This document shows, in pieces, positions 17,686 to 24,787 of a DNA stretch of 39,781 nt (within the stretch, counting starts at the first letter, position 1; every line of letters starts with the position of its first letter). A program made the position numbers and the translations under genes. The notes under the pieces are model-generated. The model searched no databases, was not told the origin of the DNA, and saw nothing but the letters and a program-made list of their open reading frames with translations. Source of the stretch: Cyanobacteria bacterium QS_4_48_99 (lineage in GTDB: Bacteria > Cyanobacteriota > Cyanobacteriia > Cyanobacteriales > Rubidibacteraceae); NCBI GenBank assembly GCA_003021505.1, contig PXPT01000172.1, positions 1 through 39,781 on the forward strand. Direction: 5' to 3'.

Positions 17686-19218
17686 ATGTCTTCCACCTCC
17701 ACTGAACCCTACAAAAGCCGATTGTTTAATTTCTTCAATCGGACATCTCTGCACTTGCGCCGCCGATGGGCAAACGCAGGGCGGCAGATGAAAGTTGCAG
17801 CCGCTCGGGGAGTGCAAATTCTGCTCTATCCGGTTTACTTGCTAGTGCAAACAGGGCGAGTTGTGGGGCATAGGCTTCAGGAATCTAGGCGCGATGATAA
17901 AACACTGCCCGCAGCAGACGCACCCATTCAGCGCGTGTTGGAAACAGTCGAGCCTCACATGAATGCCACAGCTAACGAGGAAAAAGGTGGAGGCTTAAAG
18001 TTTCCCTTTTCTCTTTTTCTAGCACCATTAGCAAAGCGAGCGCAGCCGCAAGCAACTAAGACGCTTGACAACCAGAATTGCTGGCTCGCTCAGGATAACA
18101 CTCTCACTGAGGCGCTCATCGAACAAGGCAGAGGGCAGAGGGACAGGGCTTTTAAACTTTCAAGGTTTCCTCGAAAGGCAGCCCCTCCAGAGGGCAGAGG
18201 AAAAAGGATTTTTAACCTACTGCCTTCCGAGGCGGAAGCCTCGATCATGCAAGGGGTGGCAACGCTTTTAGAGACGCGCACTCTAGTTTTGGTTAGGAGT
18301 GACAATCGCGTTCTCGATCTTCTTACCCCATCGCAACAACAAATACTCCAGCAGCGCATAAGCTTGGAAGTGGCTGAATATTGGCATCAGCCCTTGCCTA
18401 TGCCCAGAGCGAGTTACTTTCCCCTGCAAGTCTTTTGGAAATTGATGGACTGGGTGCAAACTAGCCCAGTGGCACGCGCGATTGATCTGTTTGGTGAATC
18501 CACTCTTGTCACTCGAAAAGACAAGCTTTGGGAGCGTCGAATCCTGCCCGCTGGGGCGATTGAGCGATGGGGTTATTGGTGGAGCGATCGCCTCACCGAA
18601 CGACTACACGAGCTGACTTTTGGCTCACCGCGATTAGAACCTCGCCCCCAACCCGATTTTTCCAACATTCAAACCCTCATTCGCGCTGGCATTAACTACT
18701 TTTTGGGCAAGCGCCGCAGGCAATCTTTCTACGAGTACGCAGAGGGTACAGAAATCCCCACTTCCACTCCCGAAAATCCCTGGTTGTCTTGGGGAGATTT
18801 ATTTAGTCTTACCCCCTCTCCAGCAGGGCACTATCCAGAAGCCAGTGTTTGTGATCTTCCCCTCTCCCAAAGCGCTCCCCAGACTAGAGTGAAGAGGAAA
18901 AAATCCTTGCTCAGAGCAGTTCTGCGAGTGATGGGAGGAGTACCTGTCACGCCGCAGAATTCCCATAAGAGTGGCAGCAAGGATTTTACAGAAGGATGGG
19001 ATTCCGGGATGCCGAAAGCGGGAGAGAATTTTTCTGCAAGCTTCTCCCCCTCCTCCTCAGCACATACTCTGCCTCCACCCGATTGGATTGAAATCGAAGC
19101 AATTCCCATCGGCTATGTCAAGCATCCCCTAGAGCGATTACTGGTATGGCTTGACGGTATCATGCTTTGGCTAGAAGAACTGGTGAGAAAAATTTGGCGA
19201 TCGCTGTTTAGAAAATAA
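17686..19218 (+). CDS. Conserved cyanobacterial protein of unknown function
   Basis: 510 aa, no recognised domain. The N-terminus is basic (RLFNFFNRTSLHLRRRWANA). A middle region has LEVAEYWHQPLPMPRASYFP and RILPAGAIERWGYWWSDRL. A Ser/Pro-rich linker follows, then a C-terminal amphipathic segment (VKHPLERLLVWLDGIMLWLE, then RKIWRSLFRK) that may bind membranes. I recognise it only as a cyanobacteria-restricted type. Part of the N-terminal third (EQGRGQRDRAFKLSRF to PPEGRGKRIF) is encoded by GGCAGAG heptamers at 18127-18147 and again near 18195. It is thus a repeat-derived insertion within the frame. Divergent from UPF0182, which may share regulation. Confidence 0.7.
   Translation: MSSTSTEPYKSRLFNFFNRTSLHLRRRWANAGRQMKVAAARGVQILLYPVYLLVQTGRVVGHRLQESRRDDKTLPAADAPIQRVLETVEPHMNATANEEKGGGLKFPFSLFLAPLAKRAQPQATKTLDNQNCWLAQDNTLTEALIEQGRGQRDRAFKLSRFPRKAAPPEGRGKRIFNLLPSEAEASIMQGVATLLETRTLVLVRSDNRVLDLLTPSQQQILQQRISLEVAEYWHQPLPMPRASYFPLQVFWKLMDWVQTSPVARAIDLFGESTLVTRKDKLWERRILPAGAIERWGYWWSDRLTERLHELTFGSPRLEPRPQPDFSNIQTLIRAGINYFLGKRRRQSFYEYAEGTEIPTSTPENPWLSWGDLFSLTPSPAGHYPEASVCDLPLSQSAPQTRVKRKKSLLRAVLRVMGGVPVTPQNSHKSGSKDFTEGWDSGMPKAGENFSASFSPSSSAHTLPPPDWIEIEAIPIGYVKHPLERLLVWLDGIMLWLEELVRKIWRSLFRK
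18127..18147. repeat. GGCAGAG heptamers inside the 510-aa gene
   Basis: GGCAGAG, GGCAGAG, GGACAGG in tandem. A further GGCAGAG lies near 18200. Translated in frame. Confidence 0.7.
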
Positions 19219-19351: not shown

Positions 19352-19645
19352 CTAGCCAATCCCATTGAGTGAGCGATCGCATTTGTCGAGGCGTGAGTCT
19401 GCTAAAGCTTTGTACTCCAACACCACAGAAACTGCTCTAAAACGTTCTAGGCTCAGGAAATCAGCGACTAGTGCCGGTGTGGGGTTAGCCCCAGCAACAG
19501 CATTAAAGAAGTCCTTCAAATCTCGCTGGTATGCCCTACGAGTATTAGCAGACCGCTTATCTGCGAGAAGCTCCTGGACAAGATCTCGATGATTTGAGGT
19601 TACAAACGAGGGGATATAAGAGTTGGTGGGGGATAGAGCGCTCAT
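19352..19645 (-). pseudogene. Tyrosine recombinase (phage integrase) N-terminal fragment
   Basis: From ATG 19645 (MSALSPTNSYIPSF) the fragment reads RDLVQELLADKRSANTRRAY, then QRDLKDFFNAVAGANPTPAL and FLSLERFRAVSVVLEYKA. This is the SAM-like core-binding domain that precedes the catalytic domain in XerC/XerD-type recombinases. After about 85 residues the sequence departs from the family and stops at 19352. No R-H-R-Y catalytic segment exists in the next 130 bp, so the gene is a truncated remnant. A 61-bp hairpin lies just upstream. Confidence 0.7.
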
Positions 19646-19690
19646 TATGGTTTTTATGATAATTGACATTTCCGTAACAACTCAAGTCTA

Positions 19691-19751: not shown

Positions 19752-20317
19752 TTGGCAAAAACTGAGCAGAGACAGCCTACAGGGTGAACAAGACTGAGGA
19801 TTGAAGCAGAATTGTAATCTATATATTTTTGCTTCTCATTCATTGAGAAGTTTTCCGTGTTTAGTAGTAAGAGCCAGCAAATATAAGTGTCCCTTCCCAC
19901 TAGGATTAGTTACTTAGGCGTAAGCTTTAAACTCTTCTCATACCACCACCTGTGCTACTCTACAGCTTAGAAAATCCGACCTACAGCTAATTTGGCACTG
20001 GAGGTCTTTTCTTTTCCCAGTATTCTGATACTAGTACAAACGTGCCACTAACTTTCAGGGTGTGATTTACTTGCCTGCTGCCATTATCTAGATGAACTGA
20101 TGACACAACCTAATCGTCGTTGCGATCCTTTTTGGTTTTGTCATGCTTCAATTACACAGCAACGTAAATCGGTAGAGTAAGTGATCTAGAATGAGCGTGA
20201 AAGTAATCACGCTATCAAGCCACCAGTTTTTTGGTTCAATTAACTGAAGTGCTGTAACATGTGGAGGAACCCAATAGCTTTTGTGTTCTGCCATTCTACA
20301 AAATAGGAGAAACTAAC
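19752..20317. other. Gene-poor stretch upstream of the small acidic-protein gene
   Basis: No credible coding region on either strand. Contents seen: a CTTCTCA/TGAGAAG hairpin followed by TTTT (19832-19854), which could act as a terminator on the plus strand; and an AGCGTGA/TCACGCT inverted repeat (20194-20213). No HIP1 site in the stretch. The leader of the gene at 20318 must lie here. Confidence 0.4.
20194..20213. promoter_or_regulatory. Inverted repeat, possible operator
   Basis: AGCGTGA (20194-20200) and TCACGCT (20207-20213) are perfect 7-bp arms with a six-base spacer, 104 bp upstream of the ATG at 20318. The spacing suits a dimeric regulator, but no regulator is encoded nearby. Confidence 0.3.
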
Positions 20318-20671
20318 ATGGCGTTTTATCAATTAGAACTTGATTCCCTTACTGCAAATGATACCCAAGACTTGTGGTCCGACGATGAACTCAGTTTGAA
20401 TGTTGAAGGAAATGTTAAAGAATCAGGGTCCTGGGAGGGCTCAATAGGTCAAAATGAGACAATTTACTTTGACTCGCTTAACACTGCTACAGTGCGGTAC
20501 GATGATCAGATTAACGTTAGTCTTAATGAAGATGATTTTGGACTAGGTGCAAACGATGAGCTTGACACTAAAACAATATCTCCCTCTGACCCTGCACTGC
20601 AATATGATGGTACGAAAGAATATACCTTTTCAGGAGACGGTTTCGAATATACTTTAGATGTTTCATTGTAA
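20318..20671 (+). CDS. Small acidic beta-rich protein, unknown function
   Basis: 117 aa starting MAFYQLELDSLTANDTQD, with a Shine-Dalgarno AGGAG ten bases upstream that favours this ATG over the one at 20261. Very acidic, no Cys, no signal peptide or membrane segment. Alternating hydrophobic residues (ELSLNVEGN, TATVRYDDQINVSL, KEYTFSGDGFEYTLDVSL) suggest a single beta-sandwich, possibly C2-like with Asp-lined loops (WSDDELSL, NEDDFGLGANDEL) that could bind calcium; this is inference. The neighbour on the other strand ends in a domain with a similar pattern. Followed by a hairpin terminator. AT-rich context without HIP1 suggests accessory DNA. Confidence 0.7.
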   Translation: MAFYQLELDSLTANDTQDLWSDDELSLNVEGNVKESGSWEGSIGQNETIYFDSLNTATVRYDDQINVSLNEDDFGLGANDELDTKTISPSDPALQYDGTKEYTFSGDGFEYTLDVSL

Positions 20672-20846
20672 CTTGCAGAGTTAGTGGCATAAGCACGGCA
20701 AATGCAGCTCAAGCTCCAAAAGCGTTTTTAAAGTGTTTTTTGGCAACTGTGGCCGAAAGTGCTTTAATCCTTATCGATTCAATATGCCGACCTTGAGATG
20801 TTAAACATTTCGTGTACTCTTTAATAAACTCTTTTGACGTTGCGGC

Positions 20847-20871
20847 AACTCTAGTATTAATCGCTAGAGTT
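20847..20871 (+). terminator. Terminator between convergent genes
   Basis: AACTCTAG (20847-20854) pairs with CTAGAGTT (20864-20871), nine-base loop, followed by CTTTATTGCTT. The rest of 20672-21020 is AT-rich and shows no gene. Confidence 0.5.
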
Positions 20872-21020
20872 CTTTATTGCTTGTACTTATGACTAATTTA
20901 ATCTTATTACTTATTAAGTAAAGTTAATAATTTACAAGTAACCCAGTAAGCAGCAGTGGCTCAAAAATTTTACGAAATGGAGGCAGAGACACCTGGTTGC
21001 ATAACGACTTACCGGGGTTA

Positions 21021-22121
21021 TTACCAAATTACACCCAAGTTATCTGGTACTTCATTAGTGATATTGTAGGATATAATATACACGACGTCATTTCCGTCAT
21101 CATCTCCGTCATCTTCTCCTAATTTGAGTGTCTTGAGATTACGTTCAGGATTATTGGGATAACCAACAGGAGGACCTGTTTCTCCAGGATTGTTGTATAT
21201 CGAGCCTAATCCTACTAATTCGGGATTATCTGAGCCGTCGTATTCACGAAGAGTGATAAAAGTAGTAGACCCATTAACCTCTGCATTAACAGACCTAGTT
21301 GTTATAGGGTTTCCTTCTTCACCATCTTTCATACCATCTTTATCTTTCCAAAGATCAAATTTTTGTCCATCGACCCGTAGTATGGGTTCGTCTTCATAGT
21401 CTGGATCTACTGGTGGTACACCAGGAGTTGAATAGTATTTAGCCTGGTCATCACTAATATCTTTAGCTACAATTGATGATTTAAATCCATAAGTAGCTGT
21501 CTCAACAGAAAATTTTTCCCCACCAAGAGCAATAGTCCTACTGTCGTCTTCAGCTTTTAGATCAACCAGCTCACCGTCACTGATAGCCTTATCTTCAACA
21601 AGTTGTTGAAAAATATCTCCTTCATCGCCAGGAGAATCGCCACTATTCAACTCCTGGTCTACAAAATGACCAATTTCTTCTATTAGCCCACCAGATAGTT
21701 GTTCAGATTTAGCACTACTTAGGAACTCTTCTGACAAGTAAATAGTATCTTCACCAAAACCACCATTTGCTTTTAAATCAGAACCGGGTATAACTTCAAC
21801 TTTTGGCATTGCATCACCGCTAGCCAAGTTTTGGATTAAATCTTCCGCTTGTTGGGGTTGCCAGTTATCCCCAAAAGCTTGTTCCATGTTGCTAAGGAAA
21901 TCTTCATCAGAAGCAAACGAGTCTAATTGCTCCTCTGCAAACCAAGTCGCAGCGTTCAGAGCTGCATCATCGCTAATAGAAGAGGCTTCACCACTTGCTG
22001 AGTGATTTGATTCAGGGCTGGCTAATTGTAAAGGATTATTTGAGGAGGTGTCACCTTGTTGCCCTGCGTTGGGAACTAAGGAATCGGTGGGGTTGGGCTG
22101 TGAAATGTCTATGCTTTCCAT
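21021..22121 (-). CDS. EEIGH-motif (zincin-like) protein with acidic C-terminal domain
   Basis: 366 aa from ATG 22121 (MESIDISQPNPTDSL). An upstream TTG would add 22 residues and is less likely. Acidic Ser/Asn-rich N-terminus without a Sec signal, as in cyanobacterial proteins secreted by type I systems. Residues 122-200 form a block I recall from many large cyanobacterial calcium-binding proteins: DTIYLSEEFL, then LIEEIGHFVDQELNSGDSPG, DEGDIFQQLV and AEDDSRTIALGGEKF. EEIGH (148-152) sits where zincins have HExxH, but the first His is Glu, so activity is doubtful. Residues 212-353 are a beta-rich domain (EDEPILRVDGQKFDLW, TTFITLREYDGSDNPE, VVYIISYNI) with an Asp-rich run. Convergent with the 117-aa gene. 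Confidence 0.7.
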   Translation of the reverse strand: MESIDISQPNPTDSLVPNAGQQGDTSSNNPLQLASPESNHSASGEASSISDDAALNAATWFAEEQLDSFASDEDFLSNMEQAFGDNWQPQQAEDLIQNLASGDAMPKVEVIPGSDLKANGGFGEDTIYLSEEFLSSAKSEQLSGGLIEEIGHFVDQELNSGDSPGDEGDIFQQLVEDKAISDGELVDLKAEDDSRTIALGGEKFSVETATYGFKSSIVAKDISDDQAKYYSTPGVPPVDPDYEDEPILRVDGQKFDLWKDKDGMKDGEEGNPITTRSVNAEVNGSTTFITLREYDGSDNPELVGLGSIYNNPGETGPPVGYPNNPERNLKTLKLGEDDGDDDGNDVVYIISYNITNEVPDNLGVIW

Positions 22122-22399
22122 ATCAAAAGTGGAGATAGTTTGGATTACTGAATACAGCAGTTTACACCTATGCAAGTACGGCAACACCTAGTGAAGTAAG
22201 GTGTACCTTATAGAGCCGAAAACTGCTGTAAATTGTGCTAAAGGAAACTTGCTTACAAGCTTATTCTCTTTTCAAGCGAAAACTGCAAGCACGACGCAGA
22301 AATTTACAAAAGTTTACGTTAAAACTGTAATGAGTTAAAAACAAGGCACAGACTTTAACTATGCGACGCCAAGTTTCGCATCTCAACAACCTGCAGTCT

Positions 22400-24787
22400 T
22401 CACCAACTCCGAGTGCCTTCAAACGGTTCCGCAGAACCCTCCCAGTTAAAACCATTAACGCGAAAGCCAATGGATCCCAGTTCTAAAGCTGGGTTGTAGC
22501 GCAAGAGAACACTGTAGGTGCGGCGACTGTATTCCACAAAGTAATCCGTGCTGATTTCTTCATTTTCCTCTAAGTCCAATCTGGTCTGAAAACCAGCAAG
22601 AAACGGACCATAGATTTGTTGAGTAATCCCCGCTTCCAGAACGCTTTCGTCCACGAAGCGGTCAAATAAAAACGGAGATTCGCCAACACGAATCGCTTGA
22701 GTGTAGCGAAGATTAAAAGCGGTATAGTCTAGATAAGACCTCGAAAATTGACCCAGTTGCCCTTGTAGCCCGATAGTCGCACTAAGGGAGTTTTGAGTGT
22801 CGCCATTGCTGTAAGCGCTGGCAATGCCAGTGACTCCGGTGGCGAGTCGCAAGGAAGGCTGCACCGGCACGGGGGTATAGCGTAATCCTTCAGTTGGGGT
22901 AGGCGGCAAAGTTTCGCCCTCCCAAAGCGAAAAGCCTCGGCTGAGGTAGGCAGCGCCTTGATAGCGAGTCAAGCTAACGCGGTCATCATCCTCGCCTGGA
23001 CTAAGCAACTCATCTTGGTCTGTCTCGGCGTTAATTCGTTGAATCCCTCCCTGGTAGCGGAGGTTGATCCCGGTTTCTCCTAAGCTCAAGCCTGGGGAAG
23101 TGAAAACAGCGCCCAGACTGCTTTGCACCGTCTGGTAGCCTAAGGAGCCATTGAAGAAGCGATCGCGGTAGCTATATTCTAGGTTGAGAAGATAGGGGCG
23201 CTCCCTATCACCGATGAGCTGCTCAATCTGCAAACTGGCTCGCAGTTCGTCTTCAAATTCACCAAAATCTAAACTGGTGAGTTCCGCAGTTCCCTCCAGG
23301 TTGGTTCTAGGGCTAATTGTCCCCTCCAGTTCCGCTTCTACTCCCGCCGAAGATGGGTCAAAGACTCCTTCTTCCGATACTGCCCTCTGAATAAAATATT
23401 GGGGTGTCACCTGGAAGCGCAGCCCCTCCGTTTCTACCAACCCCAAGGTGCGCTCGGCAAAGAAACCGCCACGTTCTTCGCCATCATACCCAAAGCTAAC
23501 CAAACTAGGGTCACGCTCGCGCCGGTCTAAGACAATTCGGTTTTGAAAAATTGGTAGCGAAAGTCCCTGGTCGAAAACGATGCGCGAGTCTGTCGTGGTA
23601 ATCTCGCTTTGAAGCGGACCTATCCTGGTAAACGTAGCTGTATCGGCTTGTAACTCTAACTCCGGTGGCGAGAAGGGATCGTTGGTAATGCGAACATCAC
23701 TCGCCTGCAAGCTTTCAGGACCAAACTCTACCCGCTCCGCTTGGAAGCGCAGCCGATTAATCCCTCCTTCTGTTTCCCGCGTTGGCAAATTTCTAAGATT
23801 CCTGCCACCGCCGAAATCAAATTGGTAGCCCCCTTGCGGAGTAACTTCCCTTATGGGTTCCTCTACTAAAGTCCCAGCACCGACATCACCCGGTAAGGTT
23901 GGGGAAAAATCTCTCTCAGCAGTCGGTTGATATATCTCGCCCCTCGCGTTGAGAATGACACCGCTATCTCTAACGAAATTGTATCTAAACCGAGCGCCCC
24001 GCAGCACTTGCTCCCCTCGCTTGAGAACCACATTTCCTTGTGCTACAGCCATCCGATTCGCCAAACTGACTTGCACGCGCTTCGCACTGAGCACCCCTCG
24101 CGGAAAGCGCACCAGGACATCGCCAGAGGCAGTAATCACCCGTTGCTGCTCGTCGTACTCGAGTTGATCTGCGGTAACTTTAATTTCGGTAGCGGAAGCT
24201 TCAGTGTCAGATTCTGGCTTGGTTTGGACAATTTCTGAGCGAGACGAGGTTGTCAACTCAAAGGTTCTTCTTTCTCCGTCCCGCGCTTGCATCTGCAAAC
24301 GAGTAGCCTGCGAAACTGGTTCGGGCATAGGCGCTTGCAGATTTTTGATGGGAATGGTGAAGAGTGAGGAGTGAGGAGGTGTTCTGTGCAGAGGGGCGGA
24401 GGTGCTGAGGTGGGGAGATTTCTGTGCAGAGGTGCCCAGGGGCGGAGGGGCGGAGGAGATGGGTGGGCTTGTTTGCTCCTCTGCTGTTTGTGTCCCCTTG
24501 TCCCCTTGTCCCCCATATCCTCTGCTCGGTACGCCCACAGAAATGGGAGCGCCCAGCTTGGCAGCATCTTTGTAAACTGGAGAGTCGGGATTGGAGGCAG
24601 AGGATAGGAATTGCTGAATTGCTGAATTGCTGAATTCTGAATTCAGATTGCTCTTCTGCTGCTCTAATGAGGAGCGGGAATTACTTGTGATCGCTAACCT
24701 AGCAGCATCGGCAAAATGGTTAACCGCTTTCTGTTGCTGAATTTGAACAATCCTAGGGGGTTCAGGCGGTGGAACTGATGGAGGCAT
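22400..24787 (-). CDS. DUF3769 LptD-like outer-membrane protein
   Basis: 795 aa. The Pro-rich start (MPPSVPPPEPPRIVQ) is typical of the cyanobacterial DUF3769 family. Residues about 200-275 are an OstA/LptA-like domain (IKVTADQLEYDEQQRVITAS, GVLSAKRVQV, AQGNVVLKRGEQVLRGAR). The remainder consists of beta-barrel strands alternating aromatic and polar residues (LLNLEYSYRDRFFNGSLGY, YFVEYSRRTYSVLLRYNP). The family is considered the cyanobacterial counterpart of LptD, which inserts LPS in the outer membrane. Odd: residues 49-60 (SEFSNSAIQQF) come from octamer repeats. Residues 90-143 (GQGDKGTQTAEEQTSPP, then PLGTSAQKSPHLSTSAPLHR) come from a G-rich palindromic repeat. Both fall in the disordered linker. 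Downstream of psbI, after a terminator. Confidence 0.88.
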   Translation of the reverse strand: MPPSVPPPEPPRIVQIQQQKAVNHFADAARLAITSNSRSSLEQQKSNLNSEFSNSAIQQFLSSASNPDSPVYKDAAKLGAPISVGVPSRGYGGQGDKGTQTAEEQTSPPISSAPPPLGTSAQKSPHLSTSAPLHRTPPHSSLFTIPIKNLQAPMPEPVSQATRLQMQARDGERRTFELTTSSRSEIVQTKPESDTEASATEIKVTADQLEYDEQQRVITASGDVLVRFPRGVLSAKRVQVSLANRMAVAQGNVVLKRGEQVLRGARFRYNFVRDSGVILNARGEIYQPTAERDFSPTLPGDVGAGTLVEEPIREVTPQGGYQFDFGGGRNLRNLPTRETEGGINRLRFQAERVEFGPESLQASDVRITNDPFSPPELELQADTATFTRIGPLQSEITTTDSRIVFDQGLSLPIFQNRIVLDRRERDPSLVSFGYDGEERGGFFAERTLGLVETEGLRFQVTPQYFIQRAVSEEGVFDPSSAGVEAELEGTISPRTNLEGTAELTSLDFGEFEDELRASLQIEQLIGDRERPYLLNLEYSYRDRFFNGSLGYQTVQSSLGAVFTSPGLSLGETGINLRYQGGIQRINAETDQDELLSPGEDDDRVSLTRYQGAAYLSRGFSLWEGETLPPTPTEGLRYTPVPVQPSLRLATGVTGIASAYSNGDTQNSLSATIGLQGQLGQFSRSYLDYTAFNLRYTQAIRVGESPFLFDRFVDESVLEAGITQQIYGPFLAGFQTRLDLEENEEISTDYFVEYSRRTYSVLLRYNPALELGSIGFRVNGFNWEGSAEPFEGTRSW
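24355..24545. repeat. G-rich palindromic repeat translated inside the DUF3769 gene
   Basis: GTGCAGAGGGGCGGAGGTGC near 24387 and GAGGGGCGGAGG near 24440, with GTCCCCTTGTCCCCTTGTC near 24490. Same family as the repeats near 3480 and 10440. The open reading frame passes through without a stop. Confidence 0.75.
24608..24645. repeat. GAATTGCT octamers inside the DUF3769 gene
   Basis: Three exact GAATTGCT units (24608, 24616, 24624) followed by GAATTCT and GAATTCA. Translated as part of the N-terminal linker. Confidence 0.85.

Follow-up and report, generated by a model that had tools for sequence, protein, structure and literature searches.

Two predicted C2 domains, one free-standing and one behind a zincin-like EEIGH domain, in a convergent gene pair of a cyanobacterium

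Introduction

C2 domains are calcium-dependent membrane-binding modules and are best known from animals and plants. They are typically not found in prokaryotes according to the excerpted text of a 2026 paper (PMC12922734), and C2 is listed among calcium domains in an extract of another study (PMC4987107). The only characterised cyanobacterial C2 domain found here, that of the Synechococcus NO synthase (syNOS), lacks the usual Asp residues and moves between the enzyme domains with Ca2+, as described in the same 2026 excerpt (PMC12922734). Proteins with a double-glycine (GG) motif and a C39 peptidase have been described in S. elongatus biofilms (PMC4997328), and 290 GG precursors of 28-164 aa have been reported, 150 of which were classed as 'other' (PMC3140520), both as given in extracts of these papers.

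The window analysed here is a stretch of 39,781 nucleotides from Cyanobacteria bacterium QS_4_48_99 (contig PXPT01000172.1). In an initial annotation of the window, a small acidic protein was suspected to be a free-standing copy of the C-terminal domain of a neighbouring protein with an EEIGH motif. In this study, both proteins were compared with sequence families, predicted structures and related loci.

Results and Discussion

Organization of the locus

The two genes are convergent, as had been annotated, with 349 bases between them. The gene of the 117-aa protein, identified by ORF calls, profiles and a fold model, lies at 20318-20671 on the forward strand, and that of the 366-aa EEIGH protein, identified by ORF calls and searches, at 21021-22121 on the reverse strand. 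Both frames are intact. The 117-aa gene is preceded by a good ribosome-binding site, a Shine-Dalgarno-like AGGAG read from the sequence at 20305..20309 (forward strand), eight bases 5' of the ATG. A 9-bp hairpin followed by a T-rich tail (20847..20871, forward strand) could be a terminator between the convergent genes by consensus match only, and such consensus matching returned seven terminator-like sites in 20200-22400 against 1.7 expected.

Three parts can be distinguished in the 366-aa protein, all encoded on the reverse strand. The N-terminal 61 residues (21939..22121) appear from the sequence to be an S/N/P-rich segment. They are followed by the zincin-like EEIGH domain, delimited by similarity searches at residues 62-212 (21486..21938), in which the alignment of relatives places the EEIGH motif at residues 148-152 (21666..21680) and a GDEG at residues 165-168. 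Profiles and a weak fold model point to a C2-like domain at about residues 241-355 (21057..21401). No significant family was found for either protein in Pfam, NCBIfam, PADLOC or PHROGs. Phage records contained no relative of the 366-aa protein, and a scan of viral contigs gave one distant EEIGH relative and no member of the C2 family described below.

The pair is flanked by DUF3769/LptD and UPF0182 genes. A 510-aa ORF (17686-19218, forward strand) between UPF0182 and the pair is without a significant Pfam, NCBIfam or PADLOC family.

The 117-aa protein

The fold model and the family profile together indicate that the 117-aa protein is very probably a free-standing C2 domain. The AlphaFold2 model, built from a five-row alignment, had a pLDDT of 78.3 and a pTM of 0.74, and its best 50 matches in a Foldseek search of the PDB were all C2 domains or C2-containing proteins, headed by cytosolic phospholipase A2 (cPLA2; E 1.2e-4). 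Among the matches listed by VIA-align, where absence rules out no family, were cPLA2 (Z 10.4, rmsd 3.2, 112 aligned), the cyanobacterial syNOS C2 (Z 10.2, rmsd 2.7, 106 aligned) and the perforin C2 (Z 9.8, rmsd 2.7, 104 aligned). When the model was compared with viral predicted structures, one match under E 0.001 was obtained, to an unnamed protein.

The protein itself had no Pfam C2 hit. The first lead to its family was a weak match in a single genome among 242 others of the order, and from this a family of proteins of about 110 aa, encoded in cyanobacteria and on Streptomyces plasmids, was assembled. A profile built from six relatives, with no window sequence among them, gave the 117-aa protein 37.7 bits (best of 1000 shuffles, 9.5). 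The family profile A2, which includes the 117-aa protein, matched Munc13-1 C2B (E 0.0024) and perforin C2 (E 0.1) among PDB sequences, and the Munc13-1 alignment spans both calcium loops, with TED..G.DE on loop 1 and D-x-D...DDxLG on loop 3. It had been annotated that no described system came to mind; based on the fold model and the family profile, however, the fold is a well-known one.

The C-terminal domain of the 366-aa protein

The motifs on which the likeness between the two proteins had been based are present, i.e., DDELSLNVEG and EDEPILRVDG, VSLNEDD and ITLREYD, and EYTL and VYIISYNIT in the last strand. Pairwise BLASTP between the 117-aa and 366-aa proteins gave nothing useful (best E 0.57), and therefore the shared motifs alone would be within chance. 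The first profile (six relatives, no window sequence) gave the C-terminus of the EEIGH protein just 2.7 bits, and an hhalign comparison with a 7-row profile gave a probability of 1.5. These results, together with the poor fold model described below, would fit a chance likeness, in which the C-terminus is some other acidic beta domain. This explanation appears highly improbable from the wider profiles. After distant members had been added, the C-terminus reached 19.2 bits, whereas the best of 1000 shuffles had 7.8. In a stricter comparison, a profile of 12 members without either window sequence, recruited via a profile that contained the 117-aa protein and lacked the EEIGH protein, gave 19.8 bits for the 117-aa protein and 15.9 bits for the C-terminus, although the best of 2000 shuffles, one of the 117-aa protein, reached 13.7 (the next, 8.3); the best unrelated ORF had 7.1 bits among 470 ORFs from the window and the loci, family members included. 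With a profile of 49 other domains, again without window sequences, the scores were 28.9 and 25.7 bits, respectively, whereas the best of 4000 shuffles stayed at 12.8, and none of the 55 other window ORFs was among the best 14 matches listed; these 49 domains were recruited via the profile A9, which has both window domains in it and thus introduces a mild leak.

The shared order of features is thus likely to reflect homology of a beta-sandwich domain, as judged from the sequences. The homology that had been guessed was borne out by the profiles, though not by direct comparison, and by the same family profiles the 117-aa protein is a lone version of the domain type that ends the 366-aa protein. 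That the latter domain is a C2 domain is probable, the sequences arguing well for it and the structure weakly. Structure prediction of both proteins, which had been proposed as a check, gave a C2 fold for the 117-aa protein and a poor model for the C-terminus (pLDDT 52.3, pTM 0.46). The best 50 matches of the latter model were C2 domains or C2-containing proteins, but this is partly circular because five of the six rows in its alignment were C2 proteins.

In the family tree, the two window domains did not group, and both were on very long branches, the placement of each being unsure. A recent duplication as their origin is not supported by this pattern; the two domains may be evolving fast or be in decay.

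Calcium-ligand positions

In the alignment of 51 domains, the loop-1 Asp was present in 49 (the other two being gaps), the first loop-3 position was D or E in 50, the second Asp was kept in 42 and the Asp of DDfLG in 39. At these columns the 117-aa protein has D, E, D and D, and the domain of the EEIGH protein has D, E, D and E, its DDfLG Asp being Glu by alignment. By the same approach, acidic residues of the 117-aa protein fall on calcium-ligand positions at D18, D23, E71, D73 and D80, and D18 aligns with the first loop-1 Asp of the relatives. Both domains may bind calcium, because acidic residues occupy the ligand positions.

The EEIGH domain

Residues 1-212 of the 366-aa protein had matches in 60 of 120 genomes of the order, with up to 17 in one genome, and the frames bearing them ranged from 173 to 10641 aa among the matches listed. 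The whole protein matched 18 plasmid records, 15 of which are cyanobacterial by name. As had been described, residues 148-152 carry Glu in place of the first His of HExxH, so that the window protein has EEIGH and not the zincin motif. This replacement had been considered unusual, but it is the rule among the EEIGH relatives, which share xExGHxxD followed by GDEG, where x is Glu in 34 of 35 and Ala in one. Weak Pfam and NCBIfam matches of the relatives include several zincins, alongside unrelated families; for example, the SprT-like family was matched by two of eight members (E 0.0015).

Among ten EEIGH proteins examined with Pfam, the domains after the EEIGH domain were M15 peptidase, CHAP with SH3, CARDB, CAP, PA14 (two proteins) and RTX, and two of the ten were without a Pfam match. 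The RTX match (HemolysinCabind) was in relative L019, and the 366-aa protein itself had no HemolysinCabind match and no RTX repeats. The strongest match of the N-terminal domain, L006 (50%), carries the M15 peptidase and L013 the CHAP domain, and a Nostoc plasmid protein with an EEIGH-type domain bears the annotation of a colicin E3-type cytotoxin. Seen through these relatives, the EEIGH domain commonly forms the N-terminal part of cyanobacterial proteins that look exported. It would be a carrier or maturation part of such proteins and not an ordinary protease, since replacement of the first metal-binding His extends through the whole family.

In Tenacibaculum finnmarkense (L037 4539-6542), a TssD/baseplate cluster includes a PAAR-like DUF4280 followed by an EETGH domain, and a viral contig (L062 5920-6462) carries an EEVGH-type domain close to a frame that has RTX-like and FG-GAP-like repeats. 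A contractile-injection reading, taken from the Tenacibaculum locus, was set aside for the window genome, in which no contractile sheath gene (PF04984) was found. DUF4157 is a marker of contractile-injection effectors, and it had no match in the window proteins or the EEIGH relatives in Pfam-type searches.

The C2 family in cyanobacteria

Profile A9 (12 rows, both window domains included) matched 31 of 320 genomes of the order, often in tandem; the 31 include G020 and G069, in which very long proteins with weak A9 matches look like false positives. At least two C2 genes are close together in six other positive genomes (G090, G107, G159, G219, G557 and G569), and two C2 domains occur within one protein in G156, G164, G189 and G604. 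One family member (L093) passes the Pfam C2 cut-off (24.8 over 22 bits). Several fusions were found. In L099 (214-1842), the C2 domain is fused to a Tle1-like phospholipase (PF09994, E 1.4e-84), an arrangement that parallels eukaryotic cPLA2; others join it to a crystallin domain (L087), Tectonin (L058), DUF346 (L106) or TPRs (L103). In L046, L083, L087, L088 and L091, a hydrophobic stretch rich in Gly/Ala was seen by eye to be inserted after the first strand and before DE. Moreover, in three cyanobacteria (L049 6569-6871, L050 6661-6963 and L051 1648-2085) the C2 gene is followed by a conserved 101-aa beta-rich-looking gene with the start MIR[TS]KRIEAGDWRTVESFW.

Many relatives carry export signals. 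In 18 stretches around C2 genes, which are a selection from the positive genomes, a double-glycine leader was recognised on 17 of 27 C2 genes, by pattern on 16 of them and by eye on one. Eight stretches contain C2 genes with such a leader, and a C39 exporter gene is present in five of them (L112, L115, L116, L118 and L119) and absent in three (L111, L114 and L117). Four of these genes are in tandem at L116 8603-11219 and two at L119 8797-9985, with a C39-peptidase ABC exporter directly adjoining. Signal peptides were seen by eye on the C2 relatives L091, L095 and L058. In the window pair itself, reading of the sequences showed no double-glycine leader in either protein, and no recognised secretion signal was seen on either; the window genome has two C39 peptidase genes elsewhere. 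By analogy with the EEIGH and C39 contexts of their relatives, the window proteins may be exported.

The missing signals would fit the possibility that the two C2 domains are protein-protein modules without calcium-driven membrane binding, e.g., a cytoplasmic heterodimer or a regulatory switch like that of syNOS, whose C2, mobile with Ca2+, is a top structural match of the 117-aa model. This is unlikely in our opinion, as the family keeps the acidic ligand positions, whereas the syNOS C2 lacks the usual Asp in the excerpt available (PMC12922734), and as so many relatives look exported. Calcium-dependent membrane or surface binding of the window domains, predicted from C2 biology and from the C2-lipase relative L099, stands at about even chances.

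No paper on such a C2 family was found in open-licence full texts. A broader proposal, which is tentative and which we would rate as doubtful, is that an overlooked and largely exported C2 toolkit exists in cyanobacteria and on at least two Streptomyces plasmids, with calcium-ligand positions kept. It would comprise free C2 domains, tandem GG-leader C2 proteins beside C39 exporters, C2 domains with Gly/Ala inserts near the first calcium loop, a C2-phospholipase that parallels cPLA2 and C2 domains preceded by an EEIGH carrier. In this proposal, the window pair would consist of one C2 on a carrier and a free C2 as its partner, meeting in the presence of calcium on a target membrane or on the cell's own membrane.

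Linkage of the two genes

The 3.6-Mb window genome contains exactly two A9 matches, and these are the pair with its 349-base spacer; in single-sequence searches of the same genome, each protein found just itself. By our estimate, the chance that the only two members fall within about 1 kb at random is less than one in a thousand. Such close linkage points to common acquisition or joint function, without telling them apart. On the other hand, an EEIGH-type ORF was found in none of the 18 stretches around other C2 genes, and a single-sequence search with the C-terminal region of the 366-aa protein found it in none of the 242 other genomes of the order. Co-occurrence of the pair elsewhere, which had been suggested as a check, was thus not seen; of the two outcomes that had been named as speaking together against the idea, differing folds and no co-occurrence, only the second was observed. 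That the two genes act together, as their linkage suggests, is possible and in our judgement somewhat short of even.

Acquisition is suggested by the surroundings of the pair. Beside it, a 105-aa fragment (19352-19669, reverse strand) matches PF02899, the N-terminal SAM-like domain of phage integrases (E 0.00014), and is likely a broken integrase. LptD and UPF0182 are 4.8 kb apart in the window genome compared with 1.3 kb in the relative G099, where the pair is absent; this spacing was available from G099 only, the stretches of six other relatives being without UPF0182 and one of them just 640 bases long. The G099 spacing and the integrase fragment together suggest an acquired segment. They would also be expected, as would the very long branches in the tree, if the locus were a remnant, i.e., two acquired C2 genes in a small insertion that diverge without a selected joint role. 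This is quite unlikely considering the intact frames, the conserved core positions and the good ribosome-binding site on the 117-aa gene.

The linkage could alternatively reflect an effector-immunity pair, in which the 366-aa protein would be exported as an antagonist and attach to target membranes with its C2 domain, and the 117-aa C2 would shield the producer, either by pairing with the C2 domain of the antagonist or by blocking the receptor of that domain. The EEIGH domains on likely bacteriolytic proteins (the M15 peptidase of L006, the CHAP protein L013 and the Nostoc protein annotated as a cytotoxin) and the related domain next to TssD/baseplate genes in Tenacibaculum are in agreement with it. 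Immunity genes, however, are usually found behind the toxin gene in the same orientation, whereas the window genes are convergent. Moreover, no catalytic domain was seen in the 366-aa protein with Pfam and NCBIfam, C2 genes at other loci have no EEIGH gene close by, and the pair did not recur in the searches of other genomes. An effector-immunity pair is therefore very unlikely.

Proposed role of the pair

The explanation that we slightly favour, at a little better than even, is that both genes of the locus code for divergent members of a bacterial C2 family, one free and one behind an EEIGH domain, which provide calcium-dependent holding at a membrane or surface. The EEIGH domain would serve as the carrier or maturation part of an exported protein. 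With Ca2+, the acidic loops of both C2 domains would attach to anionic lipid or to an acidic polymer on a surface, and the small protein and the EEIGH protein could thereby be held at the membrane or cell surface, as neighbours or in a C2-C2 complex.

Comparison with known systems

The EEIGH domain resembles the zincins (SprT-like, M48, M90 and Tox-MPTase3) in the weak Pfam matches of its relatives and differs from them in the Glu at the first His of HExxH; the DUF4157 injection effectors differ from it by the domain that gives them their name. Tle1-like lipases (PF09994) are connected with the family through L099, and the window pair is without a lipase. The GG precursors with C39 exporters (PMC3140520, PMC4997328) are comparable to the relatives' C2 genes, with their leaders, adjacent exporters and tandem arrangement, and not to the leaderless window proteins; C2 is not mentioned in the extracts of these two papers. 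Family members may be among the 150 'other' precursors in the extract of PMC3140520, and the family, if our interpretation is true, would be a new class of cargo for C39 exporters.

The syNOS C2 shares with the 117-aa protein a cyanobacterial origin and the C2 fold. It is part of a multidomain enzyme without the usual Asp ligands in the 2026 excerpt (PMC12922734), whereas the members of the window family are free-standing or on exported-looking proteins and keep the acidic ligands. The occurrence of such a family in 31 of 320 genomes of one order contrasts with the view on prokaryotes expressed in that excerpt. As in the C2 superfamily (PF00168), represented by cPLA2, Munc13-1 C2B and perforin C2, the family has a beta-sandwich in the model, D...DE on loop 1 and D/E-x-D...D on loop 3. 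Unlike those domains, it is bacterial and short (about 105-120 aa), its two window proteins fall outside the Pfam C2 hits, and its calcium and lipid binding is predicted. If the prediction is true, the family would give extracellular calcium a testable role in cyanobacteria and would be a bacterial counterpart to calcium-triggered membrane targeting.
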